Source of the DNA: Scenedesmus sp. ARA3
Taxonomy: Eukaryota; Chlorophyta; Chlorophyceae; Sphaeropleales; Scenedesmaceae
Direction of reading: 5' to 3'
Length of the DNA: 64,000 bases
NCBI GenBank assembly: GCA_004335835.1
Contig: RWJK01001755.1
Location: 40,089-104,088, forward strand
Positions 49,500 through 56,024 of the stretch are shown here, piece after piece (the stretch's first letter is position 1; every line of letters starts with the position of its first letter). The translations under genes and the position numbers were made by a program. The notes below the pieces were generated by a model, which searched no databases, had not been told where the DNA came from, and saw only the letters and a program-made list of their open reading frames with translations.

Positions 49500-50158
49500 G
49501 CGGACTCTGCCTGCCAAGCCCGGCTGAACTGATAGCGGAACTGCTGCGTACGGACCTTGCTTTCGCAACAAGAGTGAACGGTGCATGTCGTTCTTGCAAC
49601 AAAACGGTTTTATTCGCTGTTATTGATGGCGCACGGACAATTACACGGTCGCACTTGCCAGAGACACGTGCTGACTCCAGGACCCTACTCGGGTTCTGCC
49701 AGCTGCAGTGGCTGACTTTCACCCCTGGCAGAAACAACACGCGCGTTATCCTATGATAGCATTGGTGTCTCCTCTCCCTGTCATCAGACCCATGACGGTG
49801 AGTTACAAGCTACAAGTTCTACAGCATCCCCGGGGCCCGGGAACCCCGGCTTGCTCTGGCGTGCGTCTATTCAGGAAGAGGGTGCGTGAGCCGAGACTCA
49901 CGTCACTGTATGTTGTGACAAACCCCCTACCATGGGTGATGCCTTACCATTTTGCGCGGTACCATACGCATCTGCTGTTGATGCAGCAGCCAACAGCACC
50001 GGCTGCCAGCCATAGAAAAGCTTCGCGCCAGCTCGACAGATCTGTGAAACAGCTTCCAGGCAAACCAGCACAGACACAACTTGCACAAGCGCAGCCGCTG
50101 AAAACCACCAGTGCTGACACATTACACTCCTGAGCAGGCGCAGCCGTTGGGATGCAGC
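49500..50158. other. Intergenic stretch, presumed MDP1 promoter
   Basis: It lies between the MDP-1 start and the stop of the PAZ/OAS-like gene, both on the minus strand. It contains short GC-rich palindromic patches near 49829-49850 (CCCCGGGGCCCGGG). A plus-strand ORF at 49427-49756 overlaps the MDP-1 first exon on the other strand and is not called. Confidence 0.4.
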
Positions 50159-53100
50159 TCAACCGTGTTGCCGTGCAGGGCAGCACGCATCCCACACTGC
50201 GCCTAGCGTGCTGATCCTGAGCAGACGCTTCCACATGTCACCGTCATCAGCACATTCGTCACATCCATCTCCACCCTGGCCAGCAGCAGCAGCAGCAGCA
50301 AGAGCGCTGCCACCCGCAAGCGCATCCGCCAGCTGCGCATGCAGCTTCTTTGCAGCTTCAGCCGCGATGTCCCACTCCCTGAAAGCCTGCCATTCTGTGC
50401 AGTTGAACGTGGGGTCCACTGGGTTAATTATGTATGGGGTGTTCAGCTGCTCGCTGCCCCAGGCGTCCCTGAACTGCATTGTCTCCTCCATAGTGTACCC
50501 GCCGGGGTAGACTCGGCTCATGTCAAGCACCACTGCACGCTGCAGCGCCTCCTCTGCCTCGCCAGTGCGCAACAGCAGCGAGGCTGCTGACAGCACTGCC
50601 ATGAACAGCTTGAGCGGCTGCCGCTGGTCGAAGGAAAAGGCACCAGCCGCTGCATCCTGCTGCAGCACAAACAGCACCAGGATCTCCCAGATGAAGGCGG
50701 GAGGGCCCTTGAAGGGCGCTGCTGCCGTACCGCCTGCGCTGCACTCTGCCAACTCACCACTTGAACTGCAGCCAGCCGTTGCAACCTTCAGAGCCCCGGC
50801 TCCGCAGGCCGCTGCTGTTGCTGCCGCTGCTTCTGCCCGGCGTGCTGCTGCTTCTCTCAACGCCACTGGCAGGCCAAACTTTGCAAAGGCCTTGCACAGC
50901 CTGATCACATCAGTGGCCAGCCGCCCATGTCCGCTGTGCTTGGCGTGCTGCTTCTTGTGCTGCTCTGTGGTCACGTCTGCTGTCAGTGCTTGGTGCCGCT
51001 CTGCATACAGCTTCTCATACAGCTCTTTTGTGCGCCGCACCACTAGCACTGACAGCTCGCTGAGGTCTGTGGTGCGCTGCCTGACTGGCATAACCACAGG
51101 CAGCTGCCCCGAGTCTGCTACTGCAGCTGCCGAGTCCTGTAGCTTCTGCATCACATTCTGCCACTGCTGGTCCAGTGTCTCACCGCGGTAGTGCGCAACC
51201 TGCATGCAGCACATGCAATGGCGCAAAATGCTTGTTGTCTGGCATGCTGTCATAACAAGAGCAAGCAGAGAGACAAGCCACATGCACAGGTGATCAATCA
51301 ACAGTCTGCCATGCGCGCGGAGCCAATTTCATTTGTGTCACCTACTGACAACTCGAGACACAACTGCTATGTGTACTGTGCGTGATGGATGCATTTTGAG
51401 TATGTGCCAGTGCAGACGTTGGCGTCACTGGCCGCACCTGTATGTCCAGCTGCATGCACAGCACGCGGTGCCTCAGCGACAGGAAGTAGTGAGGCACGCA
51501 TCCCAGCAGCTCCCAGCCCCCAGCAGCCAGCGCTATCAGCAGCTGATCCTTGTCCTCTGCAGTGCTCTCTGCAGGCAGCGGCGTGATGGGGCGGAGTTCT
51601 GTGCAGAGCTGCTGCTTCACCTGGCCCAGCAGCTGCTTGCGGCACTTGTCAAAGTGCTGCTGCTTGGGGTTGTGGCACCTGAGCAGGATGATGATGTCAA
51701 GGTCACTCCTGCAGCAGCAGGACACAAGCAGCAACAACACAAAGGTGCCAAACCCGTGTTTAGCATGCATTCAGGACTCTGCGCCCTTGGGTGTCAATGT
51801 ACACATTGCAGTAGACAGCATGATTGCACTGCGCCGTGTCCATGCACCGGTGTTCTGCCACATCAACACAGCATGCCGGGGAGCTGCAGTCCACGAGGAC
51901 AGCTGTATGGTCTGAAATGCTGCTGCCATGAACGCGCAACGCTGCCATCTGCGCAGCAGCTCCATTGCAGAGCAGGCCTCGCTCACGTGCCGGCCAGGTT
52001 GGTGCGCTTCTTGAAGCTGCCCACAGGCTTGGCCCGCGCCACCGTCCATGCGCCAGACTGCTCAGCGCTGGCAATGGCGTTGCTCACAGCCTCAACCACG
52101 CGCTTCATGCGCCGACGCTCAGCTTCAGGTGGCAGCAGTGCATCGATGAGGCGCTGGATGCCGCCTTCGACGGTTTGCCGAGGCACTGCTGCTCCTGCTG
52201 GCGCTGGCTGCGCTGGGATGTCTTCACCCATCTGCCCCTTGATCATTGCGTCTGCAATCCAGGATGGCGTGCGTGCAGTGGGGCCCGTTGCATTTGGCGT
52301 GACAGGGATAGGCGGCCAGGTGTGGCGTGGATCGCGGCGCTTGAGCACTGACTGGTGCTTGGCTGACTTCTGCTCCAGCCTGCAGCAGCAGCAGCAGCAG
52401 CAGCCACCCATCCGTTCATCACCATGCAAGGAGAAGCTGTTTGCCAGTCAATGCTGAGGCTGATATTGAAAGCCATTGATTGCAATTGCGCAAATAAGCA
52501 TGCGATGCCATGGCCCTTTGATCAGCAGCGTGCCGCAGTGGCTGTGATGCATAGTGACACATTCACAGCAGGCAATCCGGATTGCTTGGATCCAAGCCAC
52601 ATGTGATTGCAAGCCACATGTGATTGCAAGCCACATGTGATTGCAAGCCACATGTNNNNNNNNNNNNNNNNNNNNNNNNNNNNNNNNNNNNNNNNNNNNN
52701 NNNNNACATGTGATTGCAAGCCACATGTGATTGCAAGCCACATGTGATTGCAAGCCACATGTGATTGCTTGGATCCAAGCCACATGTGATTGCTTGGATC
52801 CAAGCCACATGTGATTGCAAGCCAGCTGCTGTTCTGGCCCAACACCCACCAGCAGAACTCCAGTGGATAATGCCGGTACAGCTCCTGTGCTGCAAGCCTG
52901 CTGTGCTGCTCCAAATCTTCGCCTCTGCTGTTGGTTTGCTGCTCTGCGTCCGCCCTGAGCTCCACCACTATGCAGGGGCAGCGCGGCAGCTGCAGCTGCA
53001 CGCCGTGCTTGCTGTGCAGGTAGCGCTCACAGCTGGTGGTGGCTGCTGCATCACCAGCCAACTGCTCGCTGGTGCTGACGTTGTGTGTGCTGTGGCTAAT

Positions 53101-53199
53101 CTCTGCTGCAGTGCGAGGGTCCAGGCATGAGATGACGCTGCTGAAGCTCGAACAAGCACGGCCATCCTTGGCAACCTCGCAGTACACCTGCATTGTTGT

Positions 53200-53272
<73 letters not shown>

Positions 53273-53595
53273 GCAGCAGCACCCAAGGTATTTCCTTGCC
53301 TGCAGAACTTCCAGGCAGATGGCGCAATAGCAACAGGTTGCCGCACATCACAAGCACCACACAAGCAGCGACTGCACCCACAGATTCTTGAACCACCTGC
53401 ACTGCATCAGGTGCATTGGCACAGCATCTGACAGCAGGGCGTCACGCACGTGGCTCTGCAACACAATCGGTAAGCCCTGCAGCTGTGGGACTCACCCTGA
53501 TGCTCTGCAGCTGCTCATTCAGGTAGGCATAGGCCTCCGGGTTTAGCCTCAGGCTGGCAGCCTCAGCAAGCTCCTCCACAGGCTGCTGCTCCTCC

Positions 53596-53628
<33 letters not shown>

Positions 53629-54175
53629 CATTTTTGCAGCAGCTCACCCACATAGTCCACGGCCCATTTGCGGGTGGTGTGCGGGATGGCTGGTGTGGCT
53701 GTCAAAATAGTTGGTTCTGGACGAGCTGCTGCTGTTGCTGCCGTTGGCGCTGCTGCCTGCGGTGCTGACACAGTGGTAGCGACTGCGGCAGTGACTGGCA
53801 GTGCTGCAGCTGTAGGTGGAGCTGCTGCTGCTGCTGCTGCGCTGCTAGAACTTGCTGCAGCAGGCTCCATGCCGACTGGGCGCGCCACGTGCACCCCTGC
53901 CTCACACATTGAAGGGGCGGCTGCTGCGCCTGATGTGCTGCTGGGTGCCAGCTCTGCAGCAGCCTGAGGCTTCCTGTGCACTGCTGCCACACTGGGCTGG
54001 CTGCCGTCACTAGTGATTGAGCGGGCAGAAGCCGCCAGCACAGGTGAGGGGCCAGCACAGCTGTGCGGTGAGAGATCAGACAGGTGGCTGCTGCATGTGC
54101 AGCTGGGGCTGCTGCTGCTGCTGTTCCCACCATCACTGCTCTGCTGCTGGGGGGAAATGGCAAGCTTCTCATGTG

Positions 54176-54206
<31 letters not shown>

Positions 54207-54506
54207 GACACTGCTGGGTGACTCTGTGCAGCTCTGTGACAGCAGCTGGCTGCCTGGCACTGTGTGGCCCTCTGCCGAACGCTGCTGGATGGCAGGCCTG
54301 ATTTCAAAACGGCCGGATGCTACCCTATCAAGAAACGAGCTGGTGTTGTGGAGCACCTGCTGCACATGCTGCGGTTCACCATCAATGGCTGGCTGAGGTG
54401 CAGGCTGCTGCTGCTGTCGCTGCTGTAGCGCCAGGATGAGGGCCTCGGGTGCGCCTAGGCGCGCTGCACACTGCGAATCCGTGAGGATGTTTCCTAGAGG
54501 TGGCAT
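50159..54506 (-). CDS. PAZ-like domain fused to OAS-like nucleotidyltransferase
   Basis: Predicted 1,017 aa. Exons: 53496-54506, 52850-53187, 51987-52379, 51438-51708 and 50159-51199, with matching phases. Residues 1-270 are Gln/Ser/Ala-rich. Residues about 278-450 look like a PAZ fold: an entry helix WAVDYVGELLQKW, then VISCLDPRTAAEISHST, then ERYLHSKHGVQLQLPRCPC and finally YPLEFCW, in the order of Argonaute PAZ domains (…eYFk.rYni.LkyP.lPc…YlPLEvc). The C-terminal part is a nucleotidyltransferase of the 2'-5' oligoadenylate synthetase type: GSFKKRTNLAGT, then SDLDIIILL (Asp583, Asp585), and a third carboxylate Asp669 in MQLDIQV. An OAS1_C-like helical domain follows, ending NPVDPTFN…EWQAFREW. 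The NTase call is firm. The PAZ call and the fusion are probable, not proven: an alternative start for a separate NTase gene exists at 52411. The true 5' end may lie further upstream. Confidence 0.72.
52579..52826. repeat. 17/25-bp satellite in intron 2 of the PAZ/OAS-like gene
   Basis: Tandem units of ACATGTGATTGCAAGCC alternate at the edges with a 25-base form carrying the palindrome TTGGATCCAA. The array is interrupted by 50 Ns. The units contain two self-complementary words, ACATGT and TTGGATCCAA. The array sits wholly inside the intron between the PAZ-like and NTase exons, so its true length affects only intron size. Confidence 0.9.
52656..52705. other. 50-base assembly gap
   Basis: Fifty Ns lie within the 17-bp satellite, with identical repeat units on both sides. 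The size is probably a placeholder, because the array could not be resolved. Confidence 0.97.
53202..53270. repeat. (CAG)23 microsatellite in PAZ/OAS-like intron 1
   Basis: Twenty-three uninterrupted CAG units lie in the intron just 5' of the second exon's acceptor boundary (exon begins at 53187 on the minus strand, where the repeat reads CTG). It is the longest pure triplet run in the window. Confidence 0.93.
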
Positions 54507-54944
54507 CTGCGGCTGCGTGGACTCAGCAGAGTCCAGCTGTCGCAATGCTGCTGTGTTGCATGATCAAGGTCTGGTCCGCTGCCACTGCTGGGAGTTGGTG
54601 GATGTTATCACGAGTAGAGCAGTGGTGTTAGAGTTGCGTTGGCTGTGGCCCGCGAATCAGCGTGTGGGTGGGACTTGGCACGGATAGCGGGCGGACAACC
54701 TCGGAACCCACACACTGACACAAGAGTTAACACGCACAAGCCCCTCAAACATACAGTTTGCAGTTGCATGCAAAAAATGTAAAGCGTAGGACCCAAGGGA
54801 ACGGCGCGACTGAATTACTGGGGTGTCAAAGGTGCTGCTCGGCACCAACTTGTCCAAGGCTGCAAGGTTACGGGTTGGGTATGAGAACTGCAACACTCCC
54901 TGACACCAATAGATGGCAGCCCTCAAATAGCTCGTTACACGTGG
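54507..54944. other. Intergenic stretch upstream of the PAZ/OAS-like gene
   Basis: It separates the bL20 stop codon from the first called exon of the PAZ/OAS-like gene, both on the minus strand. The reading frame of that exon stays open upstream to a TGA near 54566 but has no ATG there. The stretch may therefore hold either a 5' UTR or an intron and an unseen first exon. Confidence 0.4.
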
Positions 54945-55036
54945 CTAAGCGGTGTTGTTGCTTATGCTGCCAGCTGCTTTGCTGCTGCTGCTGTTGCTGC
55001 CCGCCTCCAAGCTGCCGACCGTTATCCTCTTAGCTA

Positions 55037-55073
<37 letters not shown>

Positions 55074-55932
55074 TGGCCTGCTGCCTCCCAGGCCGCGCAT
55101 GTACTGCACTTGCTCCACTAGCGCCTTGAAGCTGTGAGGCTCAAAGATGGCCAGCTCCGACAGCATCTTGCGGTTGAGCGTCACGTTCTCCTGCCGCAGC
55201 CCATTCATGAACAGCGAGTACTTGATCTGCGCGGCGGCAGCAGCAAGCACGTGCAACTTCAGCTGGCTGCAGACCAAGCTATAAAAAGTTCATCGTCATA
55301 AAGTACAACCTGCAATTGCTCCGCTTCTTGCATGGTGCTGTTTGCTAAATGGCTGCACACCGTGCTGCTGACACAGGCCCGGCGAGCGTCCAAGGGATGC
55401 CATGCGTACAAAGCAGCAGCAGCATCAGTGGACAGCCCAGCTGCAAGCAGCTGTACCACCAGCACAGCCTCCTCCGCGCTTATGTCATGGCCCCTGCACT
55501 GCCTTGCCCTGCTGCATCTGCCCTGGACGGGCAGCGCCGATAGCTAAACAGCAAATAGTCCAGGCTGCTGCTGCTGCTGCTGCTGCTGAATCCTCGTTCA
55601 GCATGCACAGAGCACGACTAAACAACAGCAGCCATGCTTATGCTGCCAGGCTGCCAAACCAGCATTATGTTCCCACACTGCTTCAGCCACATTGCATGCA
55701 GCAGCATGCGCAAGGGATCTTCAACGTTGCTGCGCCTCACCCCGTGCTCGCGTGCTGCTGCGTTGACACGCTGGATCCACAGCGAGCGGTTCTCGCCCTT
55801 CTTGTCCTTCCGGCCCTTGTAGGCATGCTGCAGCGCCTTCTCAGCCTGCTGGCGTGCTATCTTGATGCAGTTCTTGGCCCTGCCACGGAAGCCCTTGGCG
55901 ATCTCCCACACCCTCCTCCTGTGCAAGCCCAT
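54945..55932 (-). CDS. Ribosomal protein bL20, mitochondrial type, with Ser-rich tail
   Basis: A large-subunit ribosomal protein that binds 23S rRNA early in assembly. Exons: 55741-55932 and 54945-55226, giving 157 aa. The core matches bL20: WEIAKGFRGRAKNCIKIARQ, RSLWIQRVNAAAREHG, then IKYSLFMNGLRQENVTLNRK and LSELAIFEPHSFKALVEQV. Plastid bL20 is usually encoded in the plastome, so a nuclear copy is probably mitochondrial; the N-terminus is short, with no clear presequence. Bacterial bL20 is about 118 aa. The extra about 45 residues are a C-terminal tail with an 11-Ser run from a CTG-type repeat, then SIAKRITVGSLEAG and more Ser. I cannot exclude that the tail is removed by another intron or an alternative stop. 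Confidence 0.88.
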
Positions 55933-56024
55933 GGCTGGGGGCTGCTGCCTGCTGCTGAGTTAATGCGGCGTCTGACGGGCACGAGCTACTGTTGCACGGT
56001 GGGTCCGTGCTACTGCTACTGCTG

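Follow-up and report, generated by a model that had tools for sequence, protein, structure and literature searches.

Could one algal protein combine an RNA-binding domain of the Argonaute type with an enzyme that makes nucleotide signals? The question is raised by a gene of the green alga Scenedesmus sp. ARA3, which lies in a 64,000-nucleotide stretch of the genome (contig RWJK01001755.1, positions 40,089 to 104,088; this whole stretch is called the window, and it lies on contig C1349 of the 87.3-Mb assembly of 1,567 contigs that we searched). An earlier note, made from the letters of the DNA, had proposed that phase-compatible exons between positions 50159 and 54506 join a region with the PAZ order of motifs to an OAS-like nucleotidyltransferase (NTase). 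The existence of such a two-part gene is directly supported by the exon structure read from the sequence, by family resemblances that exceed those of shuffled sequences for each half, by the presence of the same join in an annotated protein of a second algal genome, and by the conserved catalytic motifs. We tentatively propose that it encodes a PAZ-gated, OAS-like nucleotide synthetase, a function that we regard as possible, somewhat short of probable.

The gene is located on the minus strand (54506-50159), where six phase-compatible exons would encode a protein of 1,043 amino acids. All five introns have GT/AG borders, the exons join in frame, and the stop codon is found at 50161-50159; the splice sites were taken from the DNA letters, and splicing is a prediction. 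Every motif quoted in the earlier note was found at its claimed minus-strand site, and the phase-compatible exons that it had described do join in frame. Exon 1 (53496..54506) contains the start codon and a low-complexity N-terminal region rich in Q, A, and S, and its open reading frame runs up to the donor AGG/GTGAGT (here and below, a slash marks the splice border). The end of this exon, RKWAVDYVGELLQKW, may be the first helix of the PAZ domain, as judged by eye at a place where no profile matched. Exon 2 (53378..53455) leads into the PAZ domain and ends in FKNLW, and exon 3 (52850..53187) encodes the PAZ core, with ERYLHSKHGVQLQLPRCPC starting at 53028 and YPLEFCW starting at 52869; this core has sub-threshold matches to the Pfam family PF02170 and similarity to Argonaute (AGO). 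Intron 3 (52380..52849), which connects the PAZ and NTase halves, holds a 17-bp minisatellite and an assembly gap of 50 N (52656-52705). Exon 4 (51987..52379) encodes the linker LKRRDPRHTWPP and then the start of the NTase palm, GSFKKRTNLAG, and is matched by PADLOC and NCBIfam models. The segment GSFKKRTNLAGT, followed across the splice border by SDLD, spans exons 4 and 5 (51438..51708), and exon 5 supplies both the catalytic aspartates of SDLD (D609 and D611 in the model) and a third Asp in MQLDIQ (D695). The C-terminal half of the NTase, with GPPAFIWEILVL and INPVDPTFN (50428-50402), is encoded by exon 6 (50159..51199). When the PAZ exon or the NTase was used to query the whole genome, the present locus was the sole strong match in each case, the remaining matches having E values of at least 0.04.

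The origin of the PAZ exon was assessed by comparison with the Argonaute genes of the same genome. Piwi matches in the assembly occur on three contigs only (C731, C168, and C1327). In the AGO genes on C731 and C1327, a phase-0 intron lies before the V that follows KGVK or KGAK (KGVK/V and KGAK/V), and a phase-2 intron interrupts the codon that follows the Cys in PLELC or PLEVC, that is, at PLELC(AG/ and PLEVC(AG/. The window gene has FKNLW/V in phase 0 and YPLEFC(TG/G) in phase 2, matching both AGO genes in position and phase. In both AGO genes, the frame reaches a stop just past the second donor; farther downstream, AGO-like sequence (GQRY; TDQQT) is met again in a manner that agrees with phase 2. 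Beyond this second intron, the AGO genes continue into a linker and the Piwi domain, whereas the window gene continues into the NTase; no Piwi domain appeared in Pfam scans of the pieces of the model. The match of introns at both borders with two genes, which is the strongest evidence on this point, suggests that the PAZ exon was taken from an Argonaute gene. A third Argonaute gene, on C168 (1-8000), has Piwi matches and is cut by the start of the contig; no PAZ domain was found in its first 1.2 kb, and a PAZ family search gave no third match in the genome, though the same search also misses the diverged PAZ domain of the window.

Several sequence comparisons of the PAZ half also point to Argonaute. 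The window PAZ domain aligned with that of AGO C731 with a score of 87, compared to a maximum of 52 among 5,000 shuffles, and the PAZ piece of a related protein from a second alga (P0001, introduced below) scored 81, a value reached by none of 5,000 shuffles. A profile built from four AGO PAZ domains (the two of this genome, human AGO1, and human AGO2) gave 19.5 bits for the window and 16.0 bits for P0001, with 11.1 bits as the best of 10,000 shuffles, and the profile-profile comparison with AGO C731 returned a probability of 92.5%. The C-terminal PAZ motifs YL..K.G..L.LP.CPC.VVEL and YPLEFCW are common to both species. In the PAZ helix, the window has Tyr together with Lys-His and P0001 has Tyr together with Lys-Tyr, at the place where human AGO2/AGO1 have Tyr together with Arg-His or Lys-Tyr. 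The pocket residues give a mixed picture: by numbering counted by hand, the retained positions are Y311 (which we take to be a residue of the AGO2 3'-end pocket), R315, replaced by K, and H316, which is H in the window and Y in P0001, F294 and P295 are not retained, and the L339 position is occupied by Y, as in AGO C731. R315 and H316 are named in the title of a PDB entry; an excerpt of PMC7265490 names F294, P295, R315, and L339 as residues of the AGO2 pocket.

The join between the two halves was found again in a second alga, Scenedesmus sp. NREL 46B-D3. Its annotated protein COO60DRAFT_6714 (P0001; 626 amino acids) reads YPLEFCWPVPTKPRDGSKLKRRNPRHIWPP..., that is, the end of a PAZ domain running into an NTase, and is 56% identical to the window protein over the aligned part and 45% identical in the PAZ piece. 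Shortly past the splice site, the motif LKRRxPRHxWPP is conserved in both. According to an excerpt of PMC7955037, the NREL 46B-D3 genome is a PacBio/Falcon assembly with gene models selected by homology and transcriptome support. The annotated protein starts with MPGPAHCSRD, and the window has MPGPSHCSRD in a different frame of the matching exon; the start of COO60DRAFT_6714 probably reflects a truncated model or an assembly indel. The protein searches covered 5.8 billion sequences, of which only the ~8,000 candidates sharing most words were scored, and returned P0001-P0005 only, P0002-P0005 coming with the NTase profile search. Among viral contigs and prokaryote genomes, tblastn confirmed no relative (0/0, 0/15, and 0/33 pattern matches).

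In the window itself, the gap in intron 3 is flanked by the 17-bp tandem repeats. A 30-base minisatellite probe had four exact matches in the assembly, all of them here and two on either side of the gap, and a search allowing three mismatches added a single match, at the gap edge. Since the probe matches flank the gap and are confined to this locus, the sequences to its left and right are most probably parts of one locus, although the array could conceivably conceal a large insert. An Argonaute gene hidden inside the gap was also considered and judged unlikely, given the locus-only minisatellite around the gap and the join in P0001.

The NTase half retains GS, DLD, and the third Asp in both sequences that cover them (the window and P0001), and the motif NPVDPT[FY]NCT is present in all six family members. 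The remaining four members, P0002-P0005, are JGI proteins with lengths of 299-341 residues; their alignment is confined to the last exon, and they are uninformative on the PAZ domain and the catalytic triad. Using an OAS profile built from four PDB domains, we obtained 14.0 bits for the window NTase and 6.4 bits for P0001, compared to 4.4 bits for the best of 6,000 shuffles; the last-exon pieces P0002-P0005 were not among the 15 best scores and thus fell among the shuffles. In PADLOC, 12 models matched the window NTase (best E 2.9e-7) and 11 matched P0001 (3.8e-5), all of them oligonucleotide cyclases. The Pfam matches of the window NTase were all sub-threshold and comprised NTP_transf_2, MTPAP-like, DZF_N, SMODS (PF18144; 16.3 bits vs a cut-off of 26.5), OAS1_C, and two unrelated weaker families; OAS1_C was listed below threshold in four of the six members, with a best E value of 0.049. 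The OAS-like character claimed in the earlier note is supported by the GS/DxD/D order, the NPVDPT motif, and OAS profile scores above shuffles for the window and P0001, but not by the OAS1_C family score, which is under its cut-off. Because OAS matched weakly in direct profile comparisons (13.8% and 10.0%), we concluded from the sequence that the NTase is OAS/CD-NTase-like, short of being a member.

The pairing of the two domains is supported by the consistent sub-threshold PAZ and OAS/CD-NTase matches, the annotated join in the second alga, and the Argonaute-type introns. If the transcript is spliced across the gap as predicted, one gene would give a two-part protein, with an N-terminal PAZ domain from Argonaute, encoded between its two bounding introns, and a C-terminal OAS/CD-NTase-like NTase with an intact triad. 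The PAZ domain would bind a small or double-stranded RNA by its 3' end and would either deliver this RNA to the NTase or switch the NTase on. The NTase would then catalyze the synthesis of a short nucleotide signal, which may be a 2'-5' linked or a cyclic or linear oligonucleotide. The broader idea is that of a hitherto undescribed kind of sensor, in which a PAZ domain of Argonaute origin would recognize RNA 3' ends and directly govern an enzyme of the OAS/CD-NTase type, thereby wiring RNA silencing to nucleotide second-messenger immunity within a single algal protein; it is conceivable, and we hold it with considerable doubt.

The proposed PAZ-gated synthetase has to be weighed against a series of unfavorable results, which concern the PAZ half, the NTase half, and the putative signal receptor, and against other explanations of the locus. 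The PAZ claim of the earlier note held in part: PF02170 does match, and the score is under the curated Pfam cut-off of 28.8 bits, with 16.8 bits for the exon alone, 18.5 bits with its read-through tail, and 19.7 bits with the neighboring exons. P0001 is under the cut-off as well (18.1 bits for the PAZ piece and 14.5 bits for the whole protein), and the corresponding values for the genome's own AGO PAZ domains are 42.2 bits (C731) and 40.9 bits (C1327). Similarity to AGO C1327 is weak, with a score of 36 for the window, reached by 175 of 5,000 shuffles, and of 29 for P0001, reached by 440 of 5,000. The genome-wide PAZ family search listed both AGO genes and not the exon of the window, and when the PAZ exon was searched against the genome, AGO C731 ranked fifth of six matches (E 0.165). 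Against PDB, the PAZ exon alone found no chain, and the two-sequence PAZ profile ranked a polymeric immunoglobulin receptor first (E 0.063), ahead of the AGO1 PAZ domain in second place (E 0.23). The structure model of the 112-residue PAZ exon with P0001 was of low quality (pLDDT 40.0, pTM 0.26). In the alignment, the equivalents of the AGO2 pocket residues F294 and P295 are lost, and the P0001 model has the front half of the PAZ domain missing or out of frame, which may be due to a false start, an assembly indel, or real decay. The low score of the exon beside those of the genome's own AGO PAZ domains, the lost pocket residues, and the front half of P0001 would all fit a PAZ piece left over from Argonaute that has decayed, has lost its RNA binding, and now acts only as scaffold or spacer, the function residing in the NTase alone. 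We consider this unlikely, as both species retain the C-terminal PAZ motifs, an outcome disfavored under neutral decay. It is very unlikely, in our judgment, that the model merges two genes, or a broken Argonaute and a neighboring NTase gene, across the assembly gap. Such a merger would agree with the location of the 50-N gap inside the intron between the two halves, with an ATG at about 52411 that could start the NTase alone, and with the Piwi half on C168, an orphan without a PAZ match that might be the missing part; it is opposed by the identical join in the separate assembly of P0001, by the confinement of the minisatellite probe, at up to three mismatches in the assembly, to the two flanks of the gap, and by the conservation of LKRRxPRHxWPP soon past the splice site in both species.

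The main rival to the synthetase shares its PAZ half and differs in the reaction: the protein may be a small-RNA 3'-end tailing enzyme, in which the PAZ domain passes a small-RNA 3' end on to the NTase for the addition of nucleotides. This would be akin to the control of small RNAs by MUT68 or HESO1, with a different enzyme. According to the excerpt of PMC7265490, the 3' ends of small RNAs are held by PAZ domains, and in human cells nucleotidyltransferases tail those ends that are exposed. The top NCBIfam match of the palm is to the archaeal CCA-adding enzymes, a family that tails RNA (TIGR03671; 30.9 bits; 24.2 bits for P0001), in a match limited to model positions 6-76 of 410 with a cut-off of 281.3, and the CBASS cyclases come next. 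The sub-threshold MTPAP-like palm, the Piwi matches on three contigs, and two RNase III matches in the assembly are also in line with tailing. The exclusive match of PADLOC models to oligonucleotide cyclases argues the other way, if weakly: since PADLOC contains defense proteins only, its matches cannot weigh cyclases against RNA-tailing enzymes. Further points against tailing are the C-terminal NPVDPT...W motif, which fits OAS1_C, and the lack of a match to the PAP_assoc domain, a marker of terminal uridylyl/adenylyl transferases of the MUT68 type, in the Pfam scans at E <= 10, though at E values above about 0.1 most matches are removed by the HMMER filters. Within the same limits, the Mab-21 model of the cGAS-like enzymes (PF03281 in the excerpt of PMC10732462) was not listed either. 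As for the OAS affinity of the NTase, the OAS1_C score (PF10421) was 13.1 bits vs a cut-off of 19.9, and the structure model of P0001 with the window exons was of low quality (pLDDT 33.5, pTM 0.22); an alignment of the window exon pieces with P0002-P0005 misplaced the short exons and was left out of the folding. PDB sequence searches with pieces of the window protein and P0001 gave nothing at E <= 0.001, the weak matches including an OAS-like protein (E 0.69; 1.0) and NF45/ILF2 (E 0.57). The spidroin and immunoglobulin receptor entries that led the PDB results were taken as chance. On balance, tailing appears to us a rather unlikely explanation, and the PAZ-gated synthetase is the reading that we retain.

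A 2'-5' linked signal raises the matter of a receptor. The statement of the earlier note that there is no obvious RNase L agrees with the present, possibly incomplete assembly, in which no RNase L-type receptor was found and the one KEN-domain match, on C1220, reads as IRE1; this absence also counts against the proposed signaling. The IRE1-like gene (C1220:11000-19500), as judged from its open reading frames alone, has a PQQ-like domain, a kinase, and the KEN domain, with apparent CCCH zinc fingers C-terminal of KEN.

Two features of the surroundings of the window gene were also recorded. CAG/GCT microsatellites are numerous in 50000-55500 (for instance at 53202-53281), both in introns and in the coding poly-Q/poly-A parts of the gene. 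Upstream, on the same minus strand (about 54945-55950), lies an organellar ribosomal protein bL20-like gene, judged from open reading frames alone.

RNA interference and oligonucleotide signaling are two antiviral strategies that, to our knowledge, are otherwise carried by separate proteins. If the PAZ-NTase protein exists and is active, it would connect the two directly and physically, and it would provide a test case for the role of OAS-like enzymes in lineages without RNase L. With its intron positions shared with Argonaute, the gene would also be a clear case of exon shuffling in which a silencing domain was captured. We found no description of a PAZ domain paired with an OAS-like NTase among the open-access papers searched, as judged mostly from titles and the starts of abstracts; the parts are known, and their combination appears to be new. 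According to the excerpt of PMC10732462, 8 of 12 eukaryotic supergroups have OAS-like CD-NTases.

Compared to known systems, the algal protein shares with the OAS superfamily the GS...DxD...D order of the palm and the C-terminal (D/N)PxDPTxN followed by W. It differs in its very low similarity (13.1 vs 19.9 bits), in the added N-terminal PAZ domain, and in having no RNase L found beside it in the assembly. The bacterial CD-NTases, or CBASS cyclases, resemble it through the 12 PADLOC cyclase models that match the palm (best E 2.9e-7), whereas the algal gene contains introns and its SMODS match is under the cut-off. With the class I archaeal CCA-adding enzymes (TIGR03671), the likeness consists of the best NCBIfam match of the palm, but it covers only positions 6-76 of 410. 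The Argonaute PAZ domain has the same order of motifs, shows similarity in the case of AGO C731, and has the same two bounding introns; in contrast, the algal model is without Piwi, has a diverged pocket, and places its PAZ domain before an NTase.

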